From: Tachypleus tridentatus
Lineage: Eukaryota; Arthropoda; Merostomata; Xiphosura; Limulidae
Length of the DNA stretch: 64,000 nucleotides
Direction: 5' to 3'
Assembly: GCF_004210375.1 (NCBI RefSeq)
Contig: NC_134829.1
Coordinates: 30,582,034-30,646,033, forward strand
Shown here: positions 6,926 through 61,633 of the stretch, piece after piece
Position numbering within the stretch: the stretch's first letter is position 1
Layout of the letters: every line of letters begins with the position of its first letter
Made by a program: the position numbers and the translations under genes
The notes under the pieces: model-generated
Seen by the model: only the letters and a program-made list of their open reading frames with translations
Told to the model about the DNA's origin: nothing
The model's database searches: none

Positions 6926-6927
6926 CA

Positions 6928-12165: not shown

Positions 12166-13233
12166 ACAGATCTGTTACAATGTTCTTTTGTTATCTATTA
12201 ATTTAGGATATTAGTGATGAATAAAGGTCAATAAATTAAAACCAATAAAACAACTATAATTTCTTCCCTAAGACTGGTTGGTTTAAAACGAACAAACAAT
12301 TACTTGTACATATTTATTACCTAACTTTTATGTTTGAAAAATGTGGTCAGGTTATACACAAATTTACCTCCATTAAACTCTAATACCACACTCAACTATA
12401 TTTCAATGAATTTCTGTCTGAGCTGAGAGGAAAATCTTTATAGCACGTGTAATAAACGTCATGAATACACAGTACTAATAAGAGCTACTTTTCGACTGGA
12501 AATAAAAATAAAGAATATACTTGAAAGTTTGAAAACCACTCAAAACATCATAAAACAATCTTTTTTTGCTACTCGAAATATTAATGTACACATCACTGTA
12601 ATTCCCGAAGAAGTAATTTTGTTTCATATTTATGTGAAATAAAAATGCCTACCATACTGTAATGAAAGTGACAGTAGGGCATTTGGTATCCATTTCATTA
12701 AAAAGTTTTCTACTGTTTTCATTTTCAACCACAGAATTATTATGAAATATAAAATATAGAATATTTGAAATATAACTCTGTAAGATATAATGCTAAGCAG
12801 TGTATCGATGTATACTGCAATGCTATTACACTAAAAAGATGGACAGTCTCTTGTGTTGTTTCAATGCCAGTGTTGTTACATTTTTTATCTGATATTGTGG
12901 TATTTTCAGCTAAAACCATTTCTCCAAAAAAGTAAATCAGCTAGGCCCTCTATATAATACGAAGTTTGGCAAGATATATTGCAAAGTAATACTGAGTAAC
13001 TTTACAGAAAACTGAGTTTGTCCTACAAAATAAACTAAATACAATATTTAATATACACTGAAATAACTTTTATTCGTACAATACAAAATAACTGTGTGAG
13101 TGTGTAAAGTTCTGTTTTTGAAATGATGGATAGTTGCTTTTATTGAAGAGATGGATAGATCAGGCTGGTTACATTCTCTCAAGAATTAGTTCCAGGTTGA
13201 CCATATGACTAAATATAATATTCCAGAATGACT
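12166..13233. other. non-coding left part of copy A
   Basis: AT-rich, no coding signal. Its value is as an unambiguous aligned stretch with 40611-41680, about 99% identical by eye. Confidence 0.6.
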
Positions 13234-16200
13234 GAGCTGAATATGTAACATAAAATTACCCAGAGTTCCCAGTGTTACCCATTTGATTGGTTATTCCCAT
13301 TAAAAAGTAAAGGTTGTAATTTTGAGACATCCTGATCTTAGCTGAATATGTAACATAAATTACCCACAGTTCCCAGTGTTACCCATTTGATTGGTTATTC
13401 CCATTAAAAAGTAAAGGTTGTAATTTTGAGACTTCTTGATCTTAGCTGAATATTAACATAAAATTACCCACAGTTCCCAGTGTTACCCATTTGATTGGTT
13501 ATTCCCATTAAAAAGTAAAGGTTGTAATCTTGAGACATCCTGATCTTAGATGAATATTAACATAAAATTACCCAGAGTTCCTAGTGTTACCCATTTGATT
13601 AATTATTCCTATTTAAAAGTAAAGGAGGCTGTAACCTTGAGACATCCTGATCTTAGCTGAATATGTAACATAAATTACCCACAGTTCCCAGTGTTACCCA
13701 TTTGATTGGTTATTCCCATTAAAAAGTAAAGGTTGTAATTTTGAGACATCTTGATCTTAGCTGAATATTAACATAAAATTACCTACAGTTCCCAGTGTTA
13801 CCCATTTCATTGGTTATTCCCATTAAAAAGTAAAGGTTGTAATTTTGAGACATCCTGATCTTAGATGAATATGTAACATAAATTACCCACAGTTCCCAGT
13901 GTTACCCATTTGATTGGTTATTCCCATTAAAAAGTAAAGGTTGTAATCTTGAGACATCCTGATCTTAGATGAATATGTAACATATAATTACCCAGAGTTC
14001 CTAGTGTTACCCATTTGATTGGTTATTCCCATTAAAAAGTAAAGGTTGTAATTTTGAGACATCTTGATCTTAGCTGAATATTAACATAAAATTACCCACA
14101 GTTCCCAGTGTTACCCATTTGATTGGTTATTCCCATTAAAAAGTAAAGGTTGTAATTTTGAGACATCTTGATCTTAGCTGAATATTAACATAAAATTACC
14201 CACAGTTCCCAGTGTTACTCATTTGATTAATTATTCCTAATTAAAAGTAAAGGAGGCTGTAACCTTGAGACATCCTGATCTTAGATGAATATGTAACATA
14301 AATTACCCACAGTTCCCAGTGTTACCCATTTGATTGGTTATTCCCATTAAAAAGTAAAGGTTGTAATTTTGAGACATCTTGATCTTAGCTGAATATTAAC
14401 ATAAAATTACCCACAGTTCCCAGTGTTACCCATTTGATTGGTTATTCCCATTAAAAAGTAAAGGTTGTAATCTTGAGACATCCTGATCTTAGATGAATAT
14501 TAACATAAAATTACCCAGAGTTCCTAGTGTTACCCATTTGATTAATTATTCCTATTTAAAAGTAAAGGAGGCTGTAACCTTGAGACATCCTGATCTTAGC
14601 TGAATATGTAACATAAATTACCCAGAGTTCCCAGTGTTACCCATTTGATTGGTTATTCCCATTAAAAAGTAAAGGTTGTAATCTTGAGACATCCTGATCT
14701 AAGCTGAATATGTAACATAAATTACCCAGAGTTCCCAGTGTTACCCATTTGATTGGTTATTCCCATTAAACAGTAAAGGTTGTAATTTTGAGACATCCTG
14801 ATCTTAGATGAATATGTAACATAAATTACCCACAGTTCCCAGTGTTACCCATTTGATTGGTTATTCCCATTAAAAAGTAAAGGTTGTAATTTTGAGACAT
14901 CCTGATCTTAGCTGAATATGTAACATAAATTACCCACAGTTCCCAGTGTTACCCATTTGATTGGTTATTCCCATTAAACAGTAAAGGTTGTAATTTTGAG
15001 ACATCCTGATCTTAGATGAATATGTAACATAAATTACCCACAGTTCCCAGTGTTACCCATTTGATTGGTTATTCCCATTAAAAAGTAAAGGTTGTAATTT
15101 TGAGACATTCTGATCTTAGCTGAATATGTAACATAAATTACCCACAGTTCCCAGTGTTACCCATTTGATTGGTTATTCCCATTAAAAAGTAAAGGTTGTA
15201 ATTTTGAGACATTCTGATCTTAGCTGAATATGTAACATAAATTACCCACAGTTCCCAGTGTTACCCATTTGATTGGTTATTCCCATTAAACAGTAAAGGT
15301 TGTAATCTTGAGACATCCTGATCTTAGATGAATATGTAACATATAATTACCCAGAGTTCCTAGTGTTACCCATTTGATTAATTATTCCTATTTAAAAGTA
15401 AAGGAGGCTGTAACCTTGAGACATCCTGATTTTAGCTGAATATGTAACATAAATTACCCAGAGTTCCCAGTGTTACCCATTTGATTGGTTATTCCCATTA
15501 AAAAGTAAAGGTTGTAATCTTGAGTCATCCTGATCTTAGATGAATATTAACATAAAATTACCCAGAGTTCCTAGTGTTACCCATTTGATTAATTATTCCT
15601 ATTTAAAAGTAAAGGAGGCTGTAACCTTGAGACATCCTGATCTTAGCTGAATATGTAACATAAATTACCCAGAGTTCCCAGTGTTACCCATTTGATTGGT
15701 TATTCCCATTAAAAAGTAAAGGTTGTAATCTTGAGACATCCTGATCTTAGATGAATATGTAACATAAATTACCCACAGTTTTCAGTGTTACCCATTTGAT
15801 TGGTTATTCCCATTAAAAAGTAAAGGTTGTAATTTTGAGACATTCTGATCTTAGCTGAATATGTAACATAAATTACCCTCAGTTCCCAGTGTTACCCATT
15901 TGATTGGTTATTCCCATTAAAAAGTAAAGGTTGTAATTTTGAGACATTCTGATCTTAGCTGAATATGTAACATAAATTACCCACAGTTCCCAGTGTTACC
16001 CATTTGATTGGTTATTCCCATTAAAAAGTAAAGCTTGTAATCTTGAGACATCCTGATCTTAGATGAATATGTAACATATAATTACCCAGAGTTCCTAGTG
16101 TTACCCATTTGATTAATTATTCCAATTTAAAAGTAAAGGAGGCTGTAACCTTGAGACATCCTGATTTTAGCTGAATATGTAACATAAATTACCCAGAGTT

Positions 16201-18700
16201 CCCAGTGTTACCCATTTGATTGGTTATTCCCATTAAAAAGTAAAGGTTGTAATCTTGAGACATCCTGATCTCAGATGAATATTAACATAAAATTACCCAG
16301 AGTTCCTAGTGTTACCCATTTGATTAATTATTCCTATTTAAAAGTAAAGGAGGCTGTAACCTTGAGACATCCTGATCTTAGCTGAATATGTAACATAAAT
16401 TACCCAGAGTTCCCAGTGTTACCCATTTGATTGGTTATTCCCATTAAAAAGTAAAGGTTGTAATCTTGAGACATCCTGACCTTAGATGAATATGTAACAT
16501 ATAATTACCCAGAGTTCCTAGTGTTACCCATTTGATTGGTTATTCATATTTAAATGTAAAGGAGGCTGTAATCTTGAGACATCCTGATCTTAGCTGAATA
16601 TGTAACATAAATTACCCAGAGTTCCCAGTGTTACCCATTTGATTGGTTATTCCCATTAAACAGTAAAGGTTGTAATTTTGAGACATCCTGATCTTAGATG
16701 AATATGTAACATAAATTACCCACAGTTCCCAGTGTTACCCATTTGATTGGTTATTCCCATTAAAAAGTAAAGGTTGTAATTTTGAGACATTCTGATCTTA
16801 GCTGAATATGTAACATAAATTACCCACAGTTCCCAGTGTTACCCATTTGATTGGTTATTCCCATTAAACAGTAAAGGTTGTAATCTTGAGACATCCTGAT
16901 CTTAGCTGAATATGTAACATAAATTACCCAGAGTTCCCAGTGTTACCCATTTGATTGGTTATTCCCATTAAACAGTAAAGGTTGTAATTTTGAGACATCC
17001 TGATCTTAGATGAATATGTAACATAAATTACCCACAGTTCCCAGTGTTACCCATTTGATTGGTTATTCCCATTAAAAAGTAAAGGTTGTAATTTTGAGAC
17101 ATTCTGATCTTAGCTGAATATGTAACATAAATTACCCACAGTTCCCAGTGTTACCCATTTGATTGGTTATTCCCATTAAAAAGTAAAGGTTGTAATTTTG
17201 AGACATTCTGATCTTAGCTGAATATGTAACATAAATTACCCACAGTTCCCAGTGTTACCCATTTGATTGGTTATTCCCATTAAAAAGTAAAGGTTGTAAT
17301 CTTGAGACATCCTGATCTTAGATGAATATGTAACATATAATTACCCAGAGTTCCTAGTGTTACCCATTTGATTAATTATTCCTATTTAAAAGTAAAGGAG
17401 GCTGTAACCTTGAGACATCCTGATTTTAGCTGAATATGTAACATAAATTACCCAGAGTTCCCAGTGTGACCCATTTGATTGGTTATTCCCATTAAAAAGT
17501 AAAGGTTGTAATCTTGAGACATCCTGATCTTAGATGAATATTAACATAAAATTACCCAGAGTTCCTAGTGTTACCCATTTGATTAATTATTCCTATTTAA
17601 AAGTAAAGGAGGCTGTAACGTTGAGACATCCTGATCTTAGCTGAATATGTAACATAAATTACCCAGGGTTCCCAGTGTTACCCATTTGATTGGTTATTCC
17701 CATTAAAAAGTAAAGGTTGTAATCTTGAGACATCCTGATCTTAGATGAATATGTAACATATAATTACCCAGAGTTCCTAGTGTTACCCATTTGATTGGTT
17801 ATTCACATTTAAAAGTAAAGGAGGCTGTAATCTTGAGACATCCTGATCTTAGCTGAATATGTAACATAAATTACCCAGAGTTCCCAGTGTTACCCATTTG
17901 ATTGGTTATTCCCATTAAACAGTAAAGGTTGTAATCTTGAGACATCTTGATCTTAGCTGAATATTAACATAAAATTACCCACAGTTCCCAGTGTTACCCA
18001 TTTGATTGGTTATTCCCATTAAAAAGTAAAGGTTGTAATCTTGAGATATCCTGATCTTAGATGAATATTAACATAAAATTACCCAGAGTTCCTAGTGTTA
18101 CCCATTTGATTAATTATTCCTATTTAAAAGTAAAGGAGGCTGTAACTTTGAGACATCCTGATCTTAGCTGAATATGTAACATAAATTACCCAGAGTTCCC
18201 AGTGTTACCCATTTGATTGGTTATTCCCATTAAAAAGTAAAGGTTGTAATCTTGAGACATCCTGATCTTAGATGAATATGTAACATATAATTACCCAGAG
18301 TTCCTAGTGTTACCCATTTGATTGGTTATTCATATTTAAAAGTAAAGGAGGCTGTAATCTTGAGACATCCTGATCTTAGCTGAATATGTAACATAAATTA
18401 CCCAGAGTTTCCAGTGTTACCCATTTGATTGGTTATTCCCATTAAAAAGTAAAGGTTGTAATCTTGAGACATCCTGATCTTAGCTGAATATGTAACATAA
18501 AATTGCCCAGAGTTCCCAGTGTTACCCATTTGATTGGTTATTCCCATTAAAAAGTAAAGGTTGTAATCTTGATACATCCTGATCTTAGCTGAATATGTAA
18601 CATAAAATTACCCAGAGTTCCCAGTGTTACCCATTTGATTGGTTATTCCCATTAAAAAGTAAAGGTTGTAATCTTGAGACATCTTGATCTTAGCTGAATA
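13234..18700. repeat. 104-bp satellite array, about 52 units (copy A)
   Basis: Each unit runs TTAGCTGAATATGTAACATA, AATTACCCACAGTTCCCAGT, GTTACCCATTTGATTGGTTA, TTCCCATTAAAAAGTAAAGG, TTGTAATTTTGAGACATCCT, GATC. Two main unit types exist: one with GGTTGTAAT, and one with ATTAATTATTCCTATTTAAA then GGAGGCTGTAA. Multi-unit blocks recur. The rare word CCTGATTTTAGCTG appears near 15426, 16161 and 17421, spacings of about 735 and 1260 bp, or roughly 7 and 12 units. Each main-type unit has an inverted CCAAT word (ATTGG). No open frame runs through it. Confidence 0.98.
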
Positions 18701-20289
18701 CTCAACAGCCATACCATCCATATATTTTGAAGGATGCATAAGAAGAAAAGTAGGCAGGATTAAAACAACTTAATGTTCTTCTTGTCCACATGTCATGTGA
18801 AAACTGCATGTTTTCATGCCTAAAGATGACCTTAGAAGGTCAAAACATTGTTTTGTAGTTTATTTTAATCAAAGTTTTAATATCCATACCAGCTGTCTGG
18901 ATAACACATTTTTACTTCAAGTGGGTTTCTCATCATCACAAATTTACCCAAATTCGAAGTGCATTTTATATTTCAATGCTAGCAGCATGGAGTTTTATAT
19001 GTTTTATCACTACCACTAAGACATTTTGTTAAATTCTGTGCTGCTATCAAGAAATATTTTATGTTGCAACACTAAGAACAAACACCATATCATGAGTTGT
19101 ACGTGTAAGTTATATTGGAACTGGTATGATGAAGTTTTATATTTTGATACTTATAATGTCATGGTGTATTTGGTTTAACTATCAGTTTAAGTTCTTCAAT
19201 TTTATCAACTCTGTTGTGTTAAAACTCAATTATTCCCGACTTACCCTCTTTTTTTACCTTTGTTTTCAACTGCACTGGAATCATCGTTAGCAGCACTACA
19301 GCACTGAAAACAGTAATTCTTCCAACACCATAACAAAGTGTATTTTTGTAGAACCAAGTGCAGTTATTACACATCAGTCTAAAAGATTAAACATAGGAAA
19401 ATTATAACGTATCTTATTAATTCACATAAACAAAGAAACACAACAAGCCTTCACTATCCCAAAATCTCTAAGATTTGTTAGGGAGACACCAACCATTCTA
19501 ACCTTACATATTTCTTTGATTCTCATTATCATATATGATCAAAATATACATATTGAAACATGAAAACTCATATCTAAAATAATTTTATTTTACAAATCAT
19601 GAACAATTCCATTAAAATATTTTTTGTGCAATGTAAATACACCAACAAGTGACATAAACATTCCCACAAGGATCTAATCATTTAAAGTGTAAAAGTTTTC
19701 ATAAGAATATCATCTTGTGTAACACAATGACAAATGTATATCATTTAATCTGGGAGGTTCATTCATTTTACCCGCTTCAAATAAACTTGAATTATTGTAA
19801 GGATTACTCTTATTGAGTGGGTACTTTCTGAGTGTTTACATAATAGAAGAATGCAATGTTCATTCCACTTAATGATAAGAAAGGCATTTTATATTTCCAA
19901 CTGTAAGTTTTAAATTTCTACAACATAGTTATACATCACAGACTAACTTCACAAATAATGCTAAAAAGTCATTACTTGCTAATATCTAATGCATCTACAA
20001 TACTTTTCATATCTCTGTTAGTTCACTAAAAACAAACTGAAACTTTACACTTCCCAGTTGACTATATCTCTCATGATCACAATAGTTTACCTTAGGTCTG
20101 GATCAACTTTATGCTTTGTTCTACTTTAGGTTAGATGTTTTAATTATCTTGCACTTCCATTCTTTTAACATTGGAAGTTTAACATCTAGTGGTATGTCAT
20201 GTATTGCACAAGGATTTCTTGATCTCGTATAATAATAATAAAAATTAAAAAACTGTTCAAATCTAAAGATAGTCTAACATTACATGTGT
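18701..20289. other. non-coding DNA with one conserved repeat tail
   Basis: Apart from the tail-like repeat at 18821-18900, the stretch is AT-rich without coding signal. It aligns with 42215-43809. Confidence 0.5.
18821..18900 (+). repeat. conserved 75-bp repeat tail, copy 2 (A)
   Basis: Words TAAAGATGACCTTAGAAGGT, CAAAACATTGTT and TTTTAATATCCATACCAGCT match copies at 7903-7980 and 36473-36545. The duplicate in copy B is at 42335-42414. Confidence 0.75.
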
Positions 20290-20730
20290 TTCTGAATGAA
20301 GTCTATTCCTAATATGTATCCTTCCTCAATGTCAATCATCATTACATCAATTTGTGTGGAGAAGTTTCCCACAGTGAGAATGACCCCCACTTTCCTCTTG
20401 TTGGAACCTCATGCATGTCAGAACCGATACAAGCAGTTTCCCAACCTTCATTATCAGAGAAGATCAAATAATGGCAACTGTTGAACCAGTATTAATCAAG
20501 ATATTTTGAGAATTTCCATAAATTAATCCATTAATTTGGGAACTGGTTTCTTTAGATAACAAATTTCTTAATTTAATTACAACAAATGGAATTTTCTTGA
20601 CTGACTTTCACTTTTTGAGTTCAGCTAATTTCTGTTGCCAAAGGTCTGATTAGCTCTCCTTTTCCTTTGGTGTGGAGAGTTTCTGTGGTTCATTCTTAGG
20701 GTATCATCTCATGGGTTTATTATCATACTA
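20290..20730 (-). mobile_element. Ty3/Gypsy protease-region relic (copy A)
   Basis: The minus strand shows recognisable remains of a retroelement aspartic-protease region: a TGSTVAII word matching the D-T-G-[SA] active-site motif region, and further along a LGIDF-like word. It is broken, with several breaks, short, and surrounded by no visible LTRs. It predates the segment duplication because copy B carries it at 43810-44250. Confidence 0.6.
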
Positions 20731-21569
20731 ATAGATGCTGTTGAAACAATTCAGTGGTAATTTCCATAAAATTAGTGAGGAATGAATATAAAATGGGCAT
20801 TTAATCTAATCCTTTGGAATAGTGTACAAGCTGTGATGGTGTACAAGCTGTGAAATTCTCTTCCAAAAATAAATACTTTTATTCTTATTGGTGTTTTTCA
20901 CTGCCCATTCAGTACAGGTTAACGGATTAATGTTAATATTGATATGAAATATTAAGGAATTGCAAAAAAAATTAATAATTTTCTTGTAATGTACCTTTGA
21001 AAATAAACAATTTAATACACTTTTTATTTCTACATGTAACAGTTCAGGAGATACAGAATATGATAGACAGATATATAAACACACACTTGGCTGTTAGATA
21101 CAAAGATATTGGTCTGTCACAGTTTCATCAGTATTGTCCATGATTTTAATATAAAAAATGGCAGTTTATTCTTAAGTTGCAAATAAAATGATACAAAAAA
21201 TGTAATTTGCCCTTCTTATTAATACAAGAAAATATATAGTAAGTGATCAATCACTTAAATCATTTATTCTACCTACCTTTATATAAAATGTACGAGATAT
21301 CAAATTTAGATGTAAATGTGTAATTGTCACTTTTCCTATTTTTTATATATTTAAGAAGTAGAGGAATTCGATGGTTATTCATCCAAGATCAGATTAGAAA
21401 GTTATGATATTATAAACAAGTAAGAATATGGAGCACTACATTGTGAATCAATTAAAACATGAAATATTATTATGGCAAAAGTCAAGGAAAGATGGAAAAT
21501 TGTTATTTATAACAAGAAACAACATAATGAAAACAGTAAGCACAATACTTGCAAGGTAAGTTGCTAATT

Positions 21570-21660
21570 GCCAGCCTCAGATGATAGAGAAGTTGGGAAG
21601 TAATCTAAGTTCGAATCCCTGTCACACAAAACATGCTCGCCCTCTCAGCATGTGCACGTT
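21570..21660 (+). mobile_element. tRNA-derived SINE fragment (copy A)
   Basis: B-box-like AAGTTCGAATCCCTGTCAC is followed by AAACATGCTCGCCCTCTCAG, the family-1 head-to-body junction. The rest of the body is absent. The matching fragment in copy B is at 45085-45178. Confidence 0.7.
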
Positions 21661-21779
21661 TTACTGACATCACAACAGTTTAAGTTTCAACATTAAATGT
21701 TCCTTATGTAACGCCATTTTAGTGTCTTTCAGGAATATAAGGATTATAATTTCTACTATAATACGGAGGCTATTTTAAA

Positions 21780-22385
21780 ATGATCAGCGTCACTATGTCT
21801 GGTCATGCTCTATCTGACGACTGTGCATATTGATAATAGCCTTCTGATGTGGTATACATTGCAAAATACTCAATCATACGGCAATCATTTCCAAAGTTCA
21901 CTGGTCCCACTTCCAGGTTTTCCATAAGTTATACAGTGAATGTAGATTATGGTTTTCCAGCACCTGCTTCAGCAGTGTGATTATACAAAACCCCTTGTGT
22001 GCTGACTTTACCAACATGTCTTTGTATGGAACATGTGAACACCCATCCCAGCTGCTTTAAGGTATGATACAGTTGAAGGAGTAAGTCGTAGAAGTAACTT
22101 CTGCATATGCGATTTCTGTCACTTTTCTAAATGGAGATCATTCTTGAATATGGTGTGTACTGTTATTTTTGACATTTGTTATAGGACTTTGCTTTCCATG
22201 GATGGTTTATATTTGTTCCATGTTTCTTTTTGAATGGTCCTGGTGCTCCAAGTTCATAAATATTCCTTTGTTTTCGAAAGGCGCAGAGTGCATGTTCTTG
22301 TCATGGAAGTTGTAAATACCAGACCTGAACACATCTTTGTCATCTGAATGTATCAATATTTTCGCTTGCAACATATGTTAACTAA
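21780..22385 (-). pseudogene. unrecognised decayed coding relic (copy A)
   Basis: About 600 bp of minus-strand sequence has protein-like composition, GC-richer than its surroundings, but is broken several times. I do not recognise the family. Because a virus-like origin cannot be excluded it is treated as a fossil. Copy B (45297-45890) carries the same relic with one longer open stretch. Confidence 0.4.
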
Positions 22386-22626
22386 AAGATTATAGTTTAG
22401 ATGGCATCACACTACCTACGAAAAGGCAAAAAAAAAAAAGCCAAAATACATTTGCAATTGATGTTGTTGTACTGCGATTTCACATTGGTTGTGGTACTCA
22501 CGTGATATTCTGATTTGTATATTCAAAATAAACTTAATATAACTCAACACTCTGTTTACTAATTTTCTGTACTATACTGTATGATATTTTCTGAGCCATA
22601 CTAAAGTTGTTTATTACAAGAAGAAT

Positions 22627-22900
22627 TGGTTTTGGTTTGTTCTGAATTTCACGCACAGCTACTCAAGGGCTATCTGCACTAGTCGCCCATAATTTAACAG
22701 TGTACGGCTAGAGGGAAGGCAGCTAGTCATCATCACCCACCGTGAACTCTTGGACTACTCTTTTACCAACGAATGGTGGGATTGGCCGTTACATTATAAC
22801 GCTCCCACGGCTGAAAGGGCGAGCATATTTGGTGCGACGAGGATTCAAACCCGCGACCCTCAGATTACGAGTCGACTGCCTTATCCACCTGGCCATGCTA
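22627..22900 (-). mobile_element. tRNA-derived SINE, family 1 (copy A)
   Basis: A nearly full-length reverse copy: head near 22900 (TGGCCAGGTGGATAAGGCAG on the minus strand), body with TTGGTAAAAGAGTAGTCC, tail ending GAAATTCAGAACAAACC. It is present in copy B at 46143-46415, so it predates the duplication. Confidence 0.93.
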
Positions 22901-24100
22901 TGTAATTGAGTATAAGATTGTAGAGGGCGTGTTTAGATGTTGGGTTGTATTTATTAATGTTGGTATAAAGGTATTCCTTTGTATTGGGTTATCTTGGGCT
23001 TGAGTTCAGATTACAATATTTCATTGATATCAAACTAACAATTTGGAAGAACAATTGTTATTTCTTTAGAATCCTTCAGTTCGTTATACACATTTACAAG
23101 TTTGAATTTTTTTCCGTTTTTATTGTTTATTATCAAGTAATTTACAAGAATTACTACTTTTTTGATTATTTAAACTTAATAACTTTTAAAAAGTATTCAC
23201 TTTCTTGGTCCTTCGTGATTTTCTTGTATTGAACTTCCTGTCGTCAATAGCTTTAAGTTATCTCATTTTTTTCTGTTCTTGTTTTCCTTGTGGTTTAGAT
23301 TCCAGACATGATTTTTTTGGTCGATTAATTTTTCTTGGTGCTAATTTTAAAACAACTTAAGCTTGAGATTTCGAAAACATTGAGAAAAACTAAAATTAAT
23401 AATAATTATCAAACTGTAGTACAATAGAAAAAAATCGTTATACAAAAGTCAAATCGCGGAAAGAATTAAAGCTCCGCATACAGGTACTGAATGGTTAAAA
23501 GCAGGATTGTAACTGATTTGGCTTTGATAAGAAATGACACTGCACACACGACTGGGGTCAGTTGTTGATTTTTGGTATGACAATGAATTTATGTTGCAAG
23601 TTATTCAAAGTAAAGATGATTTTGAAAAGTAACGTTGTTCGTGGTCGCCTGGGCTTGTCAGATACTCATCAAAAACAAAATAATATTTTATTTCAAAGTG
23701 GAGTTGTCTAGTAAAATATTATTTATAGAAACGTAAAGAACAACATAGGTAAAGACAACACTGCCAAGCCGCTGTTAGGTTTCCACACTGTAAGTAACCG
23801 GTTTGACTGCATCGTGGTTGAGTAAAAGGTTCAAGGATAAAGGCATCAGACTACATCAAGATAACTGTAAATCTTATACATGTGAGTGAGCAAAATATGT
23901 AGTAACGACTCACTGAAGGACTTCATTTTCTTCAAACAATGACTTAGTGTCATTCTGAACTTGTTAGATAATTATAAAATAATTAAATAAAAGAGATATT
24001 AATTTAATAGTTAGCATAAAGAATCACCAAAAGAATTTTAAGACGATTTCAAAAGATACTGAAGCTACAAAAGGCTACTAGTACATCGTGAAAATACTAA
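22901..24100. other. non-coding DNA
   Basis: An 82-codon open frame at 22984-23232, rich in Phe, Tyr and Ile, is conserved in copy B (46500-46748), but only because the DNA was duplicated. It has no domain. Nothing else is seen. Confidence 0.5.
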
Positions 24101-25215
24101 GCTGTAACGTGTGTGATAAGTTGTTCAACTTGTCACAGTGACTAACATGGCACACATTGATACTGACTGTAATGTATGTGATAAGTTGTTTAACTTGTCA
24201 CAGTGACTAAGATGGTCCACATTGATACTGACTGTAATGTATGTGATAAGTTGTTTAACTTGTCACAGTGACTAACATGGCACACATTGATACTGACTGT
24301 AATGTATGTGATAAGTTGTTTAACTTGTCACAGTGACTAAGATGGTCCACATTGATACTGACTGTAATGTATGTGATAAGTTGTTTAACTTGTCACAGTG
24401 ACTAAGATGGTCCACATTAATACTGACTGTAACGTATGTGATAAGTTGTTTAACTTGTCACAGTGACTAACATGGCACACATTGATACTGACTGTAATGT
24501 ATGTGATAAGTTATTTAACTTGTCACAGTGACTAACAATGGCACACATTGATACTGACTGTATTGCATGTGATAAGTTGTTTGACTTGTCACAGTGACTA
24601 ACACACATTGATACTGACTGTAATGTATGTGATAAGTTGTTTAACTTGTCACAGTGACTAACATGGCACACATTGATACTGATTGTAATGTATGTGATAA
24701 GTTGTTTAACTTGTCACAGTGACTAACATGGCACACATTGATACTGATTGTAATGTATGTGATAAGTTGTTTAACTTGTCACAGTGACTAACAATGGCAC
24801 ACATTGATACTGATTGTAATGTATGTGATAAGTTATTTAACTTGTCACAGTGACTAACAATGGCACACATTGATACTGACTGTATTGCATGTGATAAGTT
24901 GTTTGACTTGTCACAGTGACTAACATGGCACACATTGATACTAATTGTAATGTATGTGATAAGTTGTTTAACTTGTCACAGTGACTAACATGGCACACAT
25001 TGATACTGATTGTAATGTATGTGATAAGTTGTTTAACTTGTCACAGTGACTAACATGGCACACATTGATACTGACTGTAATGTATGTGATAGGTTGTTTA
25101 ACTTGTCAGAGTGACTAACATGGCACACATTAATACTGATTGTAATGTATGTGATAAGTTGTTTAACTTGTCACAGTGACTAACATGGCACACATTGATA
25201 CTGACTGTAATGCAT
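24101..25215. repeat. 65-bp hairpin satellite, about 17 units (copy A)
   Basis: The unit is TAATGTATGTGATAAGTTGT, TTAACTTGTCACAGTGACTA, ACATGGCACACATTGATACT, GACTG. GTGATAAGTT and AACTTGTCAC face each other across a GTTT loop, making a 10-bp stem with one T/G pair that would be a G-U wobble in RNA. The overlapping word GTCACAGTGAC is itself a near-perfect palindrome. Minor types carry AAGATGGTCCACATT or AACAATGGC. Decayed units continue to about 25395 (AGTAGGTTATAACCTTTTAA, GCAGTGAATTGTTTAACTTT), the expected pattern at an array edge. Confidence 0.97.
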
Positions 25216-25395
25216 ATGATGATTTGTCTAGCTTACTATAATATCTAACATTATAAAGATTTTGGTTGTACAGTAGGTTATAACCTTTTAACTTGTTACA
25301 ATGCTTAACATCTTATAGAAAGTTTTTATTGCAATGTATGCAGTGAATTGTTTAACTTTTTATGATAATTAAATTATGTACGAGATTGTTATTGT

Positions 25396-27423
25396 AACGT
25401 GCGAAAGAAAATAAATCTGTTATATATGTGTAATCATTAGACTGTTGGTCCACTTTGTAATGTCGAATAATAAATTAGGCACAATGTCATAATATTATTC
25501 ACATACCTAAATTAATTTAAGCCACTATATAACGACTTAGATTACTGAAAAACCCTATAATTCTTATATAGACATCACTATTATAGGAGGTCTAACTGCT
25601 CGTCTGTGGTTCGCCTGACCCAAGTTGTGCTGATGTGCCCTAAACGGGAAAAAATGTAGTTCCCACCAAAGGGTGCGGGCAGTCGATGAATGCATTAGTT
25701 CTCAATGTTACAAATGATATTTTCGATTTTACCATCAGTGAAAAAGAGATGGAAATCTTCAATGTGCGTGTACAATAACTAATCAGTTATTCTGCTGTAT
25801 AATATTGAATAATAAATTAGGTGCAATATTGCTCACACACCTAAATTAAATATATTCAATCCAAAAAGACTGTAAAACAAAAAACAAAATTGCAGTGTTA
25901 TTGTATAAATTCTGGTTGTATTTAATTATTTAGTTTTCTTTGGTAACTAACATTTTATAGGTAGATTTTGACGTATTTTATGTGGAGGTTATATCCAGTT
26001 TAATGAACCTCATTTTTCTATGTTATTTATTCAAAAACGAGCGTGGGTTAGGCTCGCGATAAAGCTTTGGATTTTGTACCTGGAAAACAGATTAACTTGG
26101 TACACACAATACGACAGAATTTCTCCTACAGCGGAAGATGTGTTTGTATTATAAGAGTGATAATTAACCGCTAATTATAGGTATTTTAATAATAGTGTTC
26201 TGCTTATTGGTTTTTCCTTTGATAAGCTATTCAAAGTTAAATGTATTTTTAAGTGTCCATTTTTTAACTGAAAAACGTTAAAAAACTTTCTCCCCTAAGT
26301 ATGATTTATAGTTCCTAAAAATATATCTACTGAAAAACTTATGACAAACGTCTAGCAGTCAAACAAACTGTAGGGTTTTCCTTCCGTTGACTTTTTTCTG
26401 TAGTAATATTTTAGTTGCTAACTATTTACCATCCATTCTAAAAATACAAATATGAAACCAATCAACGAAACATCTTCCTATGAATGTAAACTTTTATTAT
26501 AATATGACATTATAGAAAGAAGTGCAAAGCAAATATAGGGAGCTTGATTAAAATGGTGATCTTTAACCATTGTGTGAACTCCTTTACATGGATCTCACCA
26601 TGTCCACAATTATATGTTTTTATAAATATACCCCTAATTATCGCGCACAGATTTAACTTTGTAATTTATCACTCATTTAAAACTTAACACTACCACCACT
26701 CACACCATTTGAATGTTATAAAACAGTCAAAGATGCACACCTGTTGTGTGATGAAACTTTCAAGGACTTTTCTTGCAGAAATATTAGTTGATTTGTGACT
26801 AATACATTTCACACATCCTACCGTAATCATCTGCACGTGGTGCAAACTAAACGTGACGGGAAAGCAGTATCACTCTATATATTCCGCAAAACGGAAGTAA
26901 GGGGAACACATGAAGATGTTCACACAATTTCATATGCAGTTATTTTCATTGACAAATGCAATTTACCCCTACCCTTTCAGTTATTGACAACAACGTCTTG
27001 GCTGTTGCGTAAAACGATTGCTTCCCAAAAAATATATAACAAATAAAAGACCTCCATTTAAAGAACATTTGGTTAAATTCTGTGTTCAAACCGTACAAGT
27101 AAGTTCATTGCACCTTATTTACAATAAATCGGGATATTTCAAATGAATATTTTCTAAACGCAAATTATTGCCCTTAATTGTCTTATTCCATAAATAACTA
27201 TTTCCGTTTCATTAACTTTATGTTTTTAGTACCCAGTTTTATTGTCATTGAAGAAATTTTTGAGCCGTGTTTGATTTTAATTATACCATTTCTCAACATC
27301 CAAACGCAATGTTATGATGTTCTCTAGGAGAAATGCTAATCAAGTATTAAACTTGTACAAATGAAGGTTTAAAATCGAATTTCAAAAGTTATTTATGTGT
27401 TACGTGTTTGTGTGAGGATAAAA
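25396..27423. other. non-coding DNA
   Basis: The sequence is AT-rich apart from a GC-richer patch near 25600-25690. The 83-codon frame at 26795-27046 shows no domain, and copy B has a different frame there. No features are called. Confidence 0.5.
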
Positions 27424-27515
27424 CTAGAGTGGGCTTATCTGTTGTGTCAACCGCAGAGAATCGAACTCCGGATTTTGTTGTTGTAAGACCATAGACTTAT
27501 CACTATCCTGCAAGA
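27424..27515 (-). mobile_element. tRNA-derived SINE fragment, family 2-like (copy A)
   Basis: The minus strand has a tRNA-like head: CAGGATAGTGATAAGTCTAT, CTTACAACAACAAAATCCGG, B-box-like AGTTCGATTCTC, then ACACAACAGATAAGCCCAC. It is present in copy B at 50905-50998. Confidence 0.7.
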
Positions 27516-27832
27516 GAACATTTCTATTGTGCATAGTTGAATAAAATAATGACAAAATTATAAAAGTAAAAGCAACCATCTGTTATTACAAATCACTCAA
27601 CTTTGAGTATTCTGTGGATAAAAAAAAATAACAAAAACGTTTAGAACAGCTGATTTATTGATTGAACATTGTTTTGAGGTTAAATTAAATATCACAATGT
27701 GTGAACTTCTTTTCCAAGTAATAATTACCTTTTGAAGATTAAAAGATTAAAATAAATTCCATACACACACAAAAGAATAAATAGAAAACAAAATCATTCT
27801 TTATTAAACATTTTGTTACACACTTTATAATT

Positions 27833-29483
27833 ACACAACTACGTGATCGAGAAAAGTCATACTAATTTAAATAACTATTTCATCTATAAACAGACTTTAG
27901 GTTTATCAGCCTCCTCCTCCCCTCACAGCTGATCCTTTCCTCTCCTACTTTTGAAGTGAATATGTTGACGAAATTTGATTTTTTATGTTTTCTTTTGTCT
28001 TACCACAATTATCTATATTTACGGGTTTTTTAAATAAGTTTTCTACATGATCGAGAAAAGTCATACTAATTTAAATAACTATTTAATCTATAAACATACT
28101 TTAGGTTTATCAGCCTCCTCCTCCCCTCATAGCTGATCCTTTCCTCTCCTACTTTTGAACTGAATATGTTTACGAAATTTGATTTTTTATGTTTTCATTT
28201 GTCTTACCACAATTATCTATATTTACGGGTTTTTTTTAAAATAAGTTTTCTACATGATCGAGAAAAGTCATACTAATTTAAATAACTATTTAATCTATAA
28301 ACATATTTTAGGTTTATCAGCCTCCTCCTCCCCTCATAGCTGATCCTTTCCTCTCCTACTTTTGAACTGAATATGTTGACGAAATTTGATTTTTTATGTT
28401 TTCATTTGTCTTACCACAATTATCTATATTTACGGTTTTTTTTTTAAAATAAGTTTTCTACATGATCGAGAAAAGTCATACTAATTTAAATAACTATTTA
28501 ATCTATAAACATACTTTAGGTTTATCAGCCTCCTCCTCCCCTCATAGCTGATCCTTTCCTCTCCTACTTTTGAACTGAATATGTTTACGAAATTTGATTT
28601 TTATGTTTTCATTTGTCTTACCACAATTATCTATATTTACGGGTTTTTTAAAAATAAGTTTTCTACATGATTGAGAAAAGTCATACTAATTTAAATAACT
28701 ATTTAATCTATAAACATACTTTAGGTTTATCAGCCTCCTCCTCCCCTCATAGCTGATCCTTTCCTCTCCTACTTTTGAACTGAATATGTTTACGAAATTT
28801 GATTTTTTATGTTTTCATTTGTCTTACCACAATTATCTATATTTACGGGTTTTTTAAATAAGTTTTCTACATGATCGAGAAAAGTCATACTAATTTAAAT
28901 AACTATTTAATCTATAAACATACTTTAGGTTTATCAGCCTCCTCCTCCCCTCATAGCTGATCCTTTCCTTTCCTACTTTTGAACTGAATATGTTTACGAA
29001 ATTTGATTTTTTATGTTTTCATTTGTCTTACCACAATTATCTATATTTACGGGTTTTTTAAAAATAAGTTTTCTACATGATCGAGAAAAGTCATACTAAT
29101 TTAAATAACTATTTAATCTATAAACATACTTTAGGTTTATCAGCCTCCTCCTCCCCTCATAGCTGATCCTTTCCTCTCCTACTTTTGAAGTGAATATGTT
29201 TACGAAATTTGATTGTTTATGTTTTCATTTGTCTTACCACAATTATCTATATTTACGGGTTTTTTTTAAAATAAGTTTTCTACATGATCGAGAAAAGTCA
29301 TACTAATTTAAATAACTATTTAATCTATAAACATACTTTAGGTTTATCAGCCTCCTCCTCCCCTCATAGCTGATCCTTTCCTCTCCTACTTTTGAACTGA
29401 ATATGTTGACGAAATTTGATTTTTTATGTTTTCATTTGTCTTACCACAATTATCTATATTCTACGGTTTTTTTAAAATAAGTT
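27833..29483. repeat. 205-bp satellite array, 8 units (copy A)
   Basis: Units start near GATCGAG words at 27845, 28049, 28256, 28464, 28669, 28873, 29079 and 29286 (period 204-208 bp). Each has AAAAGTCATACTAATTTAAA, a pyrimidine-rich tract CAGCCTCCTCCTCCCCTCAT, then GATCCTTTCCTCTCCTACTT, and ends in a variable T/A homopolymer run after TTTACGG. Homopolymer length accounts for most of the period variation. Confidence 0.97.
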
Positions 29484-29503
29484 TTTTTTACGTGCGTAAA
29501 AAA
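29484..29503. repeat. perfect palindrome at the 205-bp array edge (A)
   Basis: TTTTTTACG and CGTAAAAAA are separated by TG. It lies exactly where the last satellite unit stops. The same palindrome ends the array in copy B (53580-53599). Confidence 0.85.
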
Positions 29504-29698
29504 TTTGACAACTCACACAAAGGCAAAACGGTCTTTATTTTTCATAAGCAAATTATATATTTAACACAAAAGTCATATGCAATGATACTTTAGAAACCGA
29601 CTGGAACAAACCTGTCAACCACCTTGAACACGTTTGTATAAAGCTCAAGACACTCAAAACCACTTCAATGAAAAAACGCCAAAAATCAATGTTTCAAG

Positions 29699-29920
29699 AC
29701 CGGAAAGAAGACCTTGGTTCTCATACCAACAGACAACAATAAACTATGCCTGCTGTGGAAAGGACTTTTTCATGTGCAGAAAGTAGCCAACAGAATGGAT
29801 TATGAGGTGAAAGTGTATGGAAAACCCAGATATAACATGCCAATCTCTTTAAAAGGTACTTCAAGAGGAAAGAAAACATGGCGGGTGTAGCTATCGAGGC
29901 ACTGTTGGATATGTCTCGTG
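29699..29920 (+). mobile_element. Ty3/Gypsy integrase C-terminal relic (copy A)
   Basis: The plus strand shows about 60 codons resembling the GPY/F module at the C-terminus of Ty3/Gypsy integrases: words such as LVLIPTDNNKLCLLWKG and VANRMDYEV fit the family pattern. It is a broken fragment with at least two breaks, and no LTR is visible. The copy B counterpart is at 53794-54016, so it is older than the duplication. Confidence 0.75.
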
Positions 29921-30299
29921 TATTTTTTTAAATAAAGAATCACAAGAATGATAACTTTAATGACGATTAAGAAATACTAGACCTAAGACTACTGGAAAGA
30001 AATGAGACAAGGAATCAAACATAAATGAAGAACTGGCTTGTTTTATATTGTGCAAGCAGAGAGACAGTAATAGCAGGTTTACTTATGTAACTGCTTGAGA
30101 ATCATCTGAGGTGTAGTTCAATTGTGATGCATTGACCTTATTCTAATATTCAGAGTGTTTTTCGAAGCTCCAACTGAGTATTGTTAAAGATTACCTAATA
30201 GTTTGTAGAAAAAGAAAATATAGGTGCTCAGCTAAGAAATTTATACATGGACATATGAACAACTGGTTACTGTATGAAGACAAATCACTGAAAATGAAA

Positions 30300-30740
30300 A
30301 TAAAACAAAGTTAGTGAAATATATATTTAGTGTGCTTCTAAATTTAACCATAACTAATATGTAGTGAAGATTATTCAATTGTTATAATGAAAGAAAATAA
30401 ATACTGTGTATAATAGAAAAGAGAAAAATAATTTCTTCAAATGGAGTTCTACAGTAATCAAACTCGCCTGTGTGAAATGTTTCACAAAATATAATTATTT
30501 AAATCTTTGAATATATCTGTAGTTGCCCATATGGTAGTGTAGGTGAAGTTATCACTGACTATTATAATGACAGAGATTAATTTTATTTTTTAGTCAAATG
30601 GTGTTCTAAACTAAATTGACTAGCCTGTGTGGAATTTAACGAAAACAAATATTTAAAGCCTGCAATACAACGGAGATCGAAAATGTAAAACAATTGTATA
30701 GACATTTTAATTGTTTTGAACACTATTTTAAATAAGTGGA
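30300..30740. repeat. decayed ~157-bp tandem repeat (copy A)
   Basis: Two or three diverged units carry TCAAATGG-GTTCTA then GCCTGTGTG-AA and ATTTAAA-C about 157 bp apart (CCTGTGTG at 30467 and 30624). The same words in the same order recur in the unique spacer at 39430-39830. The copy B equivalent is at 54396-54840. Confidence 0.65.
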
Positions 30741-47600: not shown

Positions 47601-48690
47601 CGTGTACATCGTGTGTGATAAGTTGAAAATACTAAGCTGTACTGACGTGTGTGATAAGTTGTTTAACTTGTCACAGTGACTAACAATGGCACACATTGAT
47701 ACTGACTGTAATGTATGTGATAAGTTGTTTAACTTGTCACAGTGACTAAGATGGTCCACATTGATACTGACTGTAATGTATGTGATAAGTTGTTTAACTT
47801 GTCACAGTGACTAACATGGCACACATTGATACTGACTGTAATGTATGTGATAAGTTGTTTAACTTGTCACAGTGACTAAGATGGTCCACATTGATACTGA
47901 CTGTAATGTATGTGATAAGTTGTTTAACTTGTCACAGTGACTAAGATGGTCCACATTAATACTGACTGTAACGTATGTGATAAGTTGTTTAACTTGTCAC
48001 AGTGACTAACATGGCACACATTGATACTGACTGTAATGTATGTGATAAGTTGTTTAACTTGTCACAGTGACTAACAATGGCACACATTGATACTGACTGT
48101 AATGTATGTGATAAGTTGTTTGACTTGTCACAGTGACTAACATGGCACACATTGATACTGACTGTAATGTATGTGATAAGTTGTTTAACTTGTCACAGTG
48201 ACTAACATGGCACACATTGATACTGATTGTAATGTATGTGATAAGTTATTTAACTTGTCACAGTGACTAACAATGGCACACATTGATACTGACTGTATTG
48301 CATGTGATAAGTTGTTTGACTTGTCACAGTGACTAACATGGCACACATTGATACTGGATTGTACTGTAATGTATGTGATAAGTTGTTTAACTTGTCACAG
48401 TGACTAACATGGCACACATTGATACTAATTGTAATGTATGTGATAAGTTGTTTAACTTGTCACAGTGACTAACATGGCACACATTGATACTGATTGTAAT
48501 GTATGTGATAAGTTGTTTAACTTGTCACAGTGACTAACATGGCACACATTGATACTGACTGTAATGTATGTGATAGGTTGTTTAACTTGTCAGAGTGACT
48601 AACATGGCACACATTAATACTGATTGTAATGTATGTGATAAGTTGTTTAACTTGTCACAGTGACTAACATGGCACACATTGATACTGACT
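47601..48690. repeat. 65-bp hairpin satellite, about 16 units (copy B)
   Basis: Same unit as 24101-25215. The array start differs: a displaced GTGTGATAAGTTG word sits at 47602-47614 beside a short repeated ACATCGTGT, suggesting local rearrangement. One unit near 48355 carries an extra GTACT. Decayed units continue to about 48880. Confidence 0.96.
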
Positions 48691-48880
48691 GTAATGCATA
48701 TGATGATTTGTCTAGCTTACTATAATATCTAACATTATAAAGATTTTGGTTGTACAGTAGGTTATAACCTTTTAACTTGTTACAATGCTTAACATCTTAT
48801 AGAAAGTTTTTATTGCAATGTATGCAGTGAATTGTTTAACTTTTTATGATAATTAAATTATGTACGAGATTGTTATTGTA

Positions 48881-51320: not shown

Positions 51321-53579
51321 CACAACTACGTGATCGAGAAAAGTCATACTAATTTAAATAACTATTTCATCTATAAACAGACTTTAGGTTTATCAGCCTC
51401 CTCCTCCCCTCACAGCTGATCCTTTCCTCTCCTACTTTTGAAGTGAATATGTTGACGAAATTTGATTTTTTATGTTTTCTTTTGTCTTACCACAATTATC
51501 TATATTTACGGGTTTTTTTAAATAAGTTTTCTACATGATCGAGAAAAGTCATACTAATTTAAATAACTATTTAATCTATAAACATACTTTAGGTTTATCA
51601 GCCTCCTCCTCCCCTCATAGCTGATCCTTTCCTCTCCTACTTTTGAACTGAATATGTTTACGAAATTTGATTTTTTATGTTTTATTTGTCTTACCACAAT
51701 TATCTATATTTTACGGGTTTTTTTTAAATAAGTTTTCTACATGATCGAGAAAAGTCATACTAATTTAAATAACTATTTAATCTATAAAGATACTTTAGGT
51801 TTATCAGCCTCCTCCTCCCCTCATAGCTGATCCTTTCCTCTCCTACTTTTGAACTGAATATGTTGACGAAATTTGATTTTTTATGTTTTCATTTGTCTTA
51901 CCACAATTATCTATATTTACGGTTTTTTTTTTAAATAAGTTTTCTACATGATCGAGAAAATTCATACTAATTTAAATAACTATTTAATCTATAAAGATAC
52001 TTTAGGTTTATCAGCCTCCTCCTCCCCTCATAGCTGATCCTTTTCTCTCCTACTTTTGAACTGAATATGCTTACGAAATTTGATTTTTTATGTTTTCATT
52101 TGCCTTACCACAATTATCTATATTTACGGGTTTTTTAAAAATAAGTTTTCTACATGATCGAGAAAAGTCATACTAATTTAAATAACTATTTAATCTATAA
52201 ACATACTTTAGGTTTATCAGCCTCCTCCTCCCCTCATAGCTGATCCTTTCCTCTCCTACTTTTGAACTGAATATGTTTACGAAATTTGATTTTTTATGTT
52301 TTCTTTTGTCTTACCACAATTATCTATATTTACGGTTTTTTTTAAATAAGTTTTCTACATGATCGAGAAAAGTCATACTAATTTAAATAACTATTTAATC
52401 TGTAAACATACTTTAGGTTTATCAGCCTCCTCCTCCCCTCATAGCTGATCCTTTCCTCTCCTACTTTTGAACTGAATATGTTTACGAAATTTGATTTTTT
52501 ATGTTTTCATTTGTCTTACCACAATTATCTATATTTACGGTTTTTTTTAAATAAGTTTTCTACATGATCGAGAAAAGTCATACTAATTTAAATAACTATT
52601 TAATCTATAAACATACTTTAGGTTTATCAGCCTCCTCCTCCCCTCATAGCTGATCCTTTTCTCTCCTACTTTTGAACTGAATATGTTTACGAAATTTGAT
52701 TTTTTATGTTTTCATTTGTCTTACCACAATTATCTATATTTACGGGTTTTTTAAAAATAAGTTTTCTACATGATCGAGAAAAGTCATACTAATTTAAATA
52801 ACTATTTAATCTATAAACATACTTTAGGTTTATCAGCCTCCTCCTCCCCTCATAGCTGATCCTTTCCTCTCCTACTTTTGAACTGAATATGTTTACGAAA
52901 TTTGATTTTTTTATTTGTCTTACCACAATTATCTATATTTACGGGTTTTTTTAAAAATAAGTTTTCTACATGATCGAGAAAAGTCATACTAATTTAAATA
53001 ACTATTTAATCTATAAACATACTTTAGGTTTATCAGCCTCCTCCTCCCCTCATAGCTGATCCTTTCCTCTCCTACTTTTGAACTGAATATGTTTACGAAA
53101 TTTGATTTTTTATGTTTTCATTTGTCTTACCACAATTATCTATATTTACGGGTTTTTTAAAAATAAGTTTTCTACATGATCGAGAAAAGTCATACTAATT
53201 TAAATAACTATTTAATCTATAAACATACTTTAGGTTTATCAGCCTCCTCCTCCCCTCATAGCTGATCCTTTCCTCTCCTACTTTTGAACTGAATATGTTT
53301 ACGAAATTTGATTTTTTATGTTTTCATTTGTCTTACCACAATTATCTATATTTACGGGTTTTTAAAATAAGTTTTCTACATGATCGAGAAAAGTCATACT
53401 AATTTAAATAACTATTTAATCTATAAACATACTTTAGGTTTATCAGCCTCCTCCTCCCCTTATAGCTGATCCTTTCCTCTCCTACTTTTGAACTGAATAT
53501 GTTTACGAAATTTGATTTTTTATGTTTTCATTTGTTTACCACAATTATCTATATTTTAGGGGTTTTTTTTAAATAAGTT
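51321..53579. repeat. 205-bp satellite array, 11 units (copy B)
   Basis: GATCGAG phase points lie at 51332, 51537, 51743, 51950, 52156, 52361, 52566, 52772, 52972, 53178 and 53382. Three more units than copy A. One unit is about 200 bp because part of the TTTATGTTTTCATTTG word is missing. The first unit (ACGTGATCGAG, ATTTCATC) matches the first unit of copy A. Confidence 0.97.
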
Positions 53580-53599
53580 TTTTTTACGTGCGTAAAAAA
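53580..53599. repeat. perfect palindrome at the 205-bp array edge (B)
   Basis: Same TTTTTTACG-TG-CGTAAAAAA palindrome as 29484-29503. Confidence 0.85.
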
Positions 53600-58156: not shown

Positions 58157-58170
58157 ATTATTATTTATTA

Positions 58171-59699: not shown

Positions 59700-61455
59700 T
59701 ATCAAACTGATATTTCACCAGTGTTATCTTAAAATTTCCCATTCATCGTTGCCGTTACGACGCCTCTGGTTGTTCTTCTAATCTCCGTAGTTCTCCTCTA
59801 CCTTCCGTTCAAAATCCGCTTTAGTGTCGTTCTAACGTACTTTTCAGAACACTCTCAAGTTGCCAACTACGTCACGAGGCACGAAAAAACGCCTTAAATA
59901 GCACTCATGGGCCTTTTCACTGTATTCTAGTGCAACAAATAGAGAATATAGCTCTCATATTCTGACGCAAAGTTTTAACTTTCAGATCTTTATTAAGCAC
60001 CAAACGTATTTAAGAGTAATAAACATTTGTTTTTATAAAAGGTTAAAGGAAAATTGTGTAACATGCTTAACGAAAAGTCAAAAGAACATTCTAGAAATTT
60101 TGCGGAAGTGCACAACCATATAACACCTATTATGTGACCTTTATATTGCGATATAATATCCCGTAGCGTCATCTAGTATCTCGAATATTGTTTTCAATAA
60201 CAAAAAGAAATATCCTGATGCATTACAGCCCCATCTATCAGAAAGAATATTATTTATAAAAATATAAAAAGGAAAATCCTGAAGTATTAACAAAGTTTAA
60301 GTTTTCCCGATATACAAGTCCAAACTATTTAAAGTTGTCTTTTAAACAATTTAAAGTTATAATCAAATATATTAAAATCTAGTTGATTGTAAACTTGTTT
60401 AGACCTTGCCCTACGTGTTCGAAATTACGAACAAAGCTATTTCAAATATTTGATGAATTTAAAAATTATAACCAAAACTCAATCAACGAGAAAATAAACA
60501 TATTTTTTAAATGTAAGTTTACTCGATAAAATCGGAAAAAAGCAATATTACTTGTGTGTTTATTTCGGAAATATAGCTCATTATGACAAAAATCACACAA
60601 AGTTCACACTTCTACGTTAGAAGTGCTTGTAATAATTCACCATATGACAATACAAACAAATCCACAACTCGCAATGATTTCAAAATATATTCTTTTTCAG
60701 TACAAGTACATTTAGTATTTCTTTCCCTTCGTACATTTTGTTTTACATATTAAACCATGTATTGTTCTTCTTGATGACAGAAAACCCACTTGAAACAAAA
60801 ATGTATCTCGGAATGGTTAACTTGAAAATGTCCTTAAAAGATTGAAACGTTGTTCTATGCTTTATTAATAAAAATGTTAAAACGCATACCAGCCATGTTT
60901 TGTTTGTTTTATAATCTGTTATAGTATATACTTACCTGCAAAAACATGTTAGCATACATCGTAACATGAAAGTGAATAAAACAGGTCAGCAATTAGTTTC
61001 ACTTTGTTTAGTGTAATTATTTATTTTTTTAAAAATACATTCAAGCAATGAACACTATCTAGAAATAAGAGCTAATTTCGCGTACTCGTTCTGCTCCTTT
61101 TTAAGGCCATATTCATGTAGGTTATTATGGTACCGTTAATGCAAAAATACACTGTCGTTCGATCTGATTTTGTGAACTTCTCACACAGTTCAAGGTCTAT
61201 TTCGCCATTTCACATATATTCTAATTTAAAATCAAATCATTTACATGTATATACACGCTTTTAATGTTGTCATAATAGATGAAAAACAATATTAAGTTAC
61301 AGCGATCTGGTAATAAATATATATATAAAATAAACAATGAACAAAGTAAAATTTGTATCCATAATTTTTATGCAAAAATCCAAAATAACAACCACCTTTA
61401 TATGTATGTCTCATTATAGTTACCGGTCCAGGTTGTCATACGGACATGTTTATGG
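59700..61455. other. non-coding DNA (copy B)
   Basis: Counterpart of 35351-37114, including the conserved repeat tail at 60831-60897. About 17 bp present in copy A near 36986-37010 are missing near 61340. Confidence 0.5.
60831..60897 (+). repeat. conserved 75-bp repeat tail, copy 3 (B)
   Basis: Duplicate of 36473-36545. Confidence 0.7.
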
Positions 61456-61633
61456 TTTGTTTCCTTTGTAATTTCGCGTAAAGCTACACGAAGGCTATTT
61501 GCGTTAGTTGTCCCTAATTTAGCGGTATAAGACTAGACGGAAAGCTGCTAGTCATCTCCAACCACCGCCAACTGTTGGGCTACTCTTTTACCAACGAATA
61601 GTGGGATTGACCGTAGCATTATTCACCCCCACG
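61456..61633 (-). mobile_element. truncated SINE at the right edge of copy B
   Basis: The tail and body match 37115-37294. Past CACCCCCACG the sequence departs completely from the SINE, so the tRNA-like head is missing. Confidence 0.9.

Follow-up and report, generated by a model that had tools for sequence, protein, structure and literature searches.

A recent and probably real mosaic segmental-duplication block with an ena pseudogene fragment on a contig of the horseshoe crab Tachypleus tridentatus

The stretch of DNA analysed here (the window) comprises 64,000 nt of Tachypleus tridentatus from contig C5 (NC_134829.1; C5:30582034-30646033) and holds two long direct copies, A (12166-37294, 25,129 bp) and B (40611-61633, 21,023 bp), both on the forward strand, with a spacer between them that carries an EVH1 exon of ena. 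A is adjoined on its left by block L (1-12164) while B is followed by block R (61668-64000, forward strand), and the window contains no N. Copies of these pieces were searched for in a genome of 2.167 Gb in 205 contigs, which are labelled C1, C2, C5, C6 and so on. Its coagulogen matches agree with a horseshoe crab, very probably T. tridentatus: this family, not known outside horseshoe crabs, is present here and was matched in none of 14 control genomes. Of two exon matches, one equals PDB 1AOC (T. tridentatus) at 48 of 48 residues and the other at 48 of 51, with its three differences in the first five residues, close to an exon edge. The stretches searched were the spacer, A, the left flank at 10100-12165 and the right flank, each of which was found to have about 7-13 close copies. 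As the genome searches scored the best candidates only (for example, 40 of 5,203), all copy counts are lower bounds. No match was obtained anywhere in the window with Rfam at its gathering thresholds or with ARAGORN, and A, the spacer and B hold no stop-to-stop frame that reaches 110 aa.

The first-pass annotation of this DNA described A and B as end-to-end direct copies, about 98-99% alike, with sharp edges at 12166, 37294, 40611 and 61633. Alignment upheld both the likeness and the edges. In direct orientation the two were observed to be 99.03% identical over 20,021 aligned columns, with 194 mismatches and 73 gap events (MAFFT), and megablast aligned stretches of 7,055 and 5,334 bp at 98%, far above chance. 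The difference in length is mainly one of satellite copy number, the largest gap (4,934 bp) being 104-bp satellite. This array occupies 13235-18700 in A with 52.1 copies and 41683-42214 in B with about 5.1 copies. Two further arrays, also on the forward strand, are a 65-bp tandem array (A 24094-25234, 17.6 copies; B 47650-48718, 16.3 copies) and a 206/207-bp tandem array (A 27839-29485, 8 copies; B 51326-53581, 11 copies). Taken with the pieces found on other contigs, A and B are sequence of at least 1 kb that recurs at 90% identity or more at more than one site, which is the usual measure of a segmental duplication.

The alignments place this block in a multicopy family, with pieces at 90-100% identity on C2, C5, C6, C9, C13 and C19. 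For example, at least six further nearly full-length copies of a 1 kb spacer piece were found, as well as split or shorter ones, located on C2, C5, C6 and C9, and an 845-bp match at a gene at C6:5.02 Mb. A 1.5 kb piece of A has at least nine full-length copies besides itself, B included, and the start of A has at least 13 copies (B being one) across all six contigs. Copies differ in extent and some are partial. A itself is put together from three or more sub-blocks that differ in their copy partners, at about 12166-27838, about 29486-34100 and about 34412-37748, the last of which extends beyond A on the right; within the second, 29600-31465 also has copies at C6:133-146 Mb and C19:61 Mb. For the final 234 bp of B (61400-61633, corresponding to 37062-37294 in A), matches at 90% or more were found in no fewer than 28 places beyond the window, of which 16 are on C6, and this piece may be a separate element. 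The first 393 bp of R have at least seven other close copies on C2, C5, C6 and C9, all of which begin at one base, and at the C6 gene the R sequence (5.0324 Mb) is located downstream of EVH1 exon 3. The window is thus a place where duplicons with different copy partners are juxtaposed.

Block L, as judged from its portion at 10100-12165, belongs to a second duplicated family and adjoins A on C5. This portion has at least nine other close copies at 94-98%, and among the matches listed all of these lie on C1 at 72.3-76.1 Mb. The sole frame of 110 aa or more in the window is a stop-to-stop frame of 376 aa in L (2941-4071) that matches the reverse-transcriptase family PF00078 (E 1e-8) and is probably a remnant of a long interspersed nuclear element.

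The spacer was given in the first-pass annotation as 3.3 kb of unrelated sequence holding the EVH1 exon of ena. Its size (3,316 bp) and its exon were borne out, the latter by a match of 44 aa to the EVH1 domain of Mena/ENAH (E 9e-17, PDB 1evh) and by a Pfam WH1 match. It cannot be called unrelated since it consists of two stretches that are native to the family; no long match of the spacer to A or B inside the window was found by megablast. An ena-derived fragment of intron and EVH1 exon 2 occupies 37756-39454 (forward strand) and is 95.8% identical to the gene at C6:5.02 Mb. Exon 2 lies at about 37903-38066 on the same strand and has an in-frame TAA at 37923-37925, so that its translation reads SLASA*ASVMIYDD. 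Among the 13 exon copies translated, this stop is common only to that at C6:10.84 Mb. The 44-codon EVH1 core downstream of the stop is open in frame and splice-like AG/GT sites are still present. The three exon copies of the family on C9 seem instead to have lost the splice acceptor stretch.

Genome-wide profile searches found WH1 exon 3 within the family at C6:5.03, C6:17.80, C6:24.11, C2:90.99, C6:10.84 and C6:9.43 Mb, and VASP_tetra at four sites (C6:5.05, C4:43.2, C1:154.2 and C4:73.8 Mb). Both occur together at C6:5.02, C1:154.2, C4:43.2 and C4:73.8 Mb, and these whole-genome searches gave no match to either on C5. The set of open EVH1 exons with a tetramerisation exon that marks a functional ena gene is lacking here. 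Because of its in-frame stop, and because exon 3 was not found on C5 by profile search, the ena exon of the window is read as a pseudogene fragment. The gene at C6:5.02-5.05 Mb is the likely donor, as exon 2, exon 3 and VASP_tetra all lie there. Four divergent ena loci were also noticed, one on C1, two on C4 and one at C9:158.3 Mb, and these would agree with published accounts of whole-genome duplication.

The non-ena block passes into the ena fragment at a fusion point at 37748-37756 (forward strand), where about 7 bp are unassigned. The alignments of eight other copies to the window run through 37756, which is also where the match to the C6:5.02 Mb gene begins; the 3' part of A has no match at that gene. 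The same parental base begins all five copies that were compared directly with the gene (the window, C2:90.99, C5:32.31, C6:17.80 and C9:28.49 Mb), the last four of which are among the eight. On C2, C13 and C19, copies of the non-ena kind follow the window up to 37748 (37765 on C13) and then continue with sequence of their own. Since the fusion point is common to the copies and starts at one parental base, a single fusion before the spread of the family is apparently the best account of it.

The arrangement of the pieces in other copies gives the native order of the family. At C6:9.41, C9:34.71 and C9:34.79 Mb the end of A is followed by 37295-39454, then by a sequence Y of 3.5-4.4 kb and then by R from 61668 onward, so that R is family sequence which natively lies further downstream. 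At C6:10.81 Mb the order was observed to be 39455-40610, A, 37295-39454, 7,451 bp of other sequence, 39455-40610 again and the start of a second A. Here the counterpart of 39455-42221 resumes 7,451 bp past that of 39454, and the intervening 7,451 bp open with Y (1-3435) and close with what stands before 39455 elsewhere in the family. The left part of the spacer (37295-39454) is what follows A elsewhere while the right part (39455-40610, forward strand) is what precedes A. Therefore, two native neighbours meet in the spacer at 39454/39455, one that belongs on the right of A and one that belongs on the left of B. The right part includes an 80-bp tandem array (39960-40189, forward strand) of 2.9 copies, which extends over about 5.7 kb at C6:10.8148-10.8205 Mb. 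From this order C6:10.81-10.86 Mb is taken to be a tandem of the window's unit. The flanks of the two copies are L and 37295 onward for A, and 39455-40610 and R for B, with none shared.

A further arrangement was noticed on C9, where C9:34712809-34735181 and C9:34772891-34795253 form a palindrome-like inverted repeat with arms of about 22 kb that are 99.1-99.2% identical. The arms are about 38 kb apart, each has one ena fragment and one A-type piece lies at the centre.

Three junctions set the window apart from these copies. J1 (12164-12166), between L and A, has no microhomology and one unassigned base; at least nine C1 copies end there and at least 13 copies of the start of A (one being B) begin there, and it is spanned by none of the 22 close family matches listed. 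J2 (39454-39455) has 1 bp of microhomology and is spanned by none of the 21 other close copies listed (9 for the left side and 12 for the right side), its two ends being 7,451 bp apart at C6:10.84 Mb. At J3 (61634-61667) B is cut inside a repeat resembling a short interspersed nuclear element (SINE), after which comes 34 bp of filler, and none of the 36 close matches listed spans it (29 for the left side, one of them A, and 7 for the right side). J1 and J2 do not lie in such a repeat. The forms of the three junctions fit end joining or template switching, and would be unlike the joins that an assembler makes from overlap. The SINE-like repeat with 26 bp of the J3 filler (61634-61659) was also seen at C9:162.6 and 163.4 Mb, at 84%, and this match is a possible source for a template switch.

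The ancestry of A and B was followed through site patterns in A, B and the first unit at C6:10.81 Mb (C), with the satellite arrays excluded. In 12166-27838 the patterns AB, AC and BC numbered 110, 17 and 27, respectively. They were 32, 51 and 6 in 29486-34100, and 17, 50 and 8 in 34110-37294. With C6:9.42 Mb as the outgroup, A and C6 had 26 shared derived sites in 33290-37294, A and B had 2, and B and C6 had 3, which are adjacent. The 3' half of A is thus closer to the C6 copy than to B, and the alignments give A a mosaic ancestry. Moreover, 36980-39454 has no mismatch to C6:10.84 Mb, and the ena fragment agrees with the copy there at 1,693 of 1,693 sites, as compared with 95.8-97.9% for the window's other eight pairs. 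This tract of 2.5 kb without substitution between C5 and C6 may reflect ectopic conversion between non-homologous chromosomes. On the other side of the spacer, 39455-41682 (the left flank and start of B) is 99.6% identical to the second C6 unit and 97.3% to the first. The window and C6:10.81-10.86 Mb accordingly have the tandem in common on both sides of the spacer, the window lacking 7.45 kb, an arrangement that simple allelism of A and B does not predict.

We consider it probable that the window holds a recent, real mosaic segmental-duplication block with an ena pseudogene fragment, a rearranged relative of the C6:10.81-10.86 Mb tandem. Several observations weigh against this. J1, J2 and J3 were each seen in the window only, with no second locus to confirm them. 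The divergence of A from B (0.97%) comes close to the 0.65% heterozygosity published for T. tridentatus (PMC6390705), and in its 5' half A goes with B, which would fit alleles or conversion. The block at 29486-31840 is undecided between B and C6 (98.64 against 98.77%), and the tract without mismatch has 11 small indels (37027-39420), mostly in homopolymers; indels without substitutions suggest a noisy long-read consensus, so the assembly need not be of high accuracy. The first-pass annotation left open whether A and B are a real duplication or two haplotypes of one locus set in series by the assembler. That A and B are alleles, as their divergence, same orientation, close spacing, junctions peculiar to the window and the closeness of the 5' half of A to B might indicate, is in our judgement improbable, and the real duplication is favoured. 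Alleles should have common flanks, which A and B do not have, and the 3' half of A groups with a copy from a different contig; both points speak against two haplotypes set in series. In addition, the interval between them is made of two native halves of the family, with no gap, and not of unique sequence, and C6:10.81 Mb offers an example of this unit in tandem. A split haplotype would be expected as a contained copy without flanks of its own or as an overlap at contig ends, while A and B lie in one contig with four different flanks. Duplications within a contig are rarely haplotype errors according to an earlier study of split-haplotype false duplications (PMC2864568), which A and B resemble in being near-identical, close together, in the same orientation and diverged by about the level of heterozygosity, and from which they differ in their continuous contig, unshared flanks, multiple copies elsewhere and the grouping of the 3' part of A with another contig. 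No papers on a haplotype-resolved Tachypleus assembly were found in the literature search.

Alternatively, the multicopy family may be real and true copies from C1, C5 and C6 misjoined at one or more of J1-J3. The restriction of each junction to the window speaks for such a chimera, as do the lack of mismatches between 36980-39454 and C6:10.84 Mb, as if reads from C6 had been used, and some indels that resemble consensus noise. False joins in overlap-based assembly require long shared sequence, whereas J1-J3 have 0-1 bp of homology or filler, and if all are wrong the assembler must have made three chimeras within 50 kb, in a window without N. We regard this as unlikely. A functional ena gene with an intron enlarged by tandem duplication is hardly credible: the intact EVH1 core and its splice-like sites speak for it, and against it stand the TAA upstream in the same exon, the lack of exon 3 and VASP_tetra matches on C5 in the whole-genome searches when four other loci have both, and the homology to the C6:5.02 Mb gene, which begins only at 37756, the 3' part of A not being found there. 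The placement in a large ena intron proposed at first is thereby replaced by a pseudogene fragment in a dispersed duplicon mosaic, and the proposal that satellite arrays were inserted around a conserved exon is likewise not supported; the satellites belong to the duplicated block. Finally, the M-ena unit (M being the satellite-rich block fused to the ena stretch) might be a large non-autonomous mobile element with a captured ena fragment, an idea partly compatible with the duplication block. Its presence on several contigs with one constant fusion point, richness in tandem arrays and retained introns are in keeping with this; the variable and partial extents of copies, the different partners of sub-blocks and the lack of frames of 110 aa or more in A, the spacer or B are not, and we think it very unlikely.

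For the preferred mosaic segmental duplication we infer the following order of events, together with its mechanisms of end joining or template switching and of gene conversion. A satellite-rich block M, without long open frames, would have been fused once to an ena intron-exon stretch, and the fused unit would then have been copied as DNA, introns kept, within and between chromosomes. One group of copies may have come to lie in tandem, as a unit, an ena piece and a further unit. The window would be a relative of the C6:10.81-10.86 Mb tandem altered by three further end-joining events, in which the left side of A was joined to a C1-type block (J1), 7.45 kb that had separated the ena piece from the following unit was lost (J2), and B lost its own ena piece by a break inside the SINE-like repeat (J3). 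Ectopic gene conversion may then have homogenised parts of A with B and other parts with C6. If the neutral rate published for Carcinoscorpius (1.37e-9 per site per year; PMC7210998) is applied, the A-B divergence corresponds to roughly 3.5 million years, the 4.2% between the ena fragment and the likely donor gene to roughly 15 million years and the tract without mismatch (36980-39454) to well under one million years; these dates are lower limits owing to gene conversion, and the rate is that of another species.

The block may be compared with the LCR16a core duplicons of primates (PMC7419210), which likewise show mosaics of juxtaposed duplicons, spread at the DNA level with exon-intron structure and partial gene copies. 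Nine of 14 LCR16a boundaries are at a SINE, AluS (PMC7419210); of the three junctions in the window one, J3, lies in a SINE-like repeat. A core that is transcribed and under positive selection would be expected of a hub like LCR16a. The shared block of the horseshoe crab is satellite-rich and has no long frames, and the ena piece of the window is a pseudogene. As an object the window is of an ordinary kind, though a rich form of it: a segmental duplication of mosaic build that carries a pseudogene fragment. In the CHEK2 duplicon, part of a functional gene is said to have been copied to other sites while the donor gene survived. The ena fragment has likewise been copied, with its likely donor gene surviving, with the difference that it rides on a larger non-gene block. 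No such family was described in the horseshoe-crab literature on segmental or interchromosomal duplication, as far as titles and the starts of abstracts go, subscription journals being mostly outside the search, and the EVH1 papers among those listed dealt with EVH1 domains and Enabled of other organisms.

No coding function is evident for the block, and its effect would be to scatter a dead ena fragment and to give a substrate for unequal exchange. The findings suggest that recent segmental duplication also yields near-identical partial gene copies on several chromosomes in this horseshoe crab, so that dead fragments can raise the apparent number of genes in families such as ena. They also caution against taking every tandem of near-identical copies in an assembly for a haplotype artefact. 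We tentatively raise the possibility, which we hold with some doubt, that horseshoe crabs have a still-active system resembling core duplicons, in which a satellite-rich block lacking long open frames would seed interchromosomal duplication, pick up gene fragments such as that of ena and be kept alike on non-homologous chromosomes by ectopic gene conversion.

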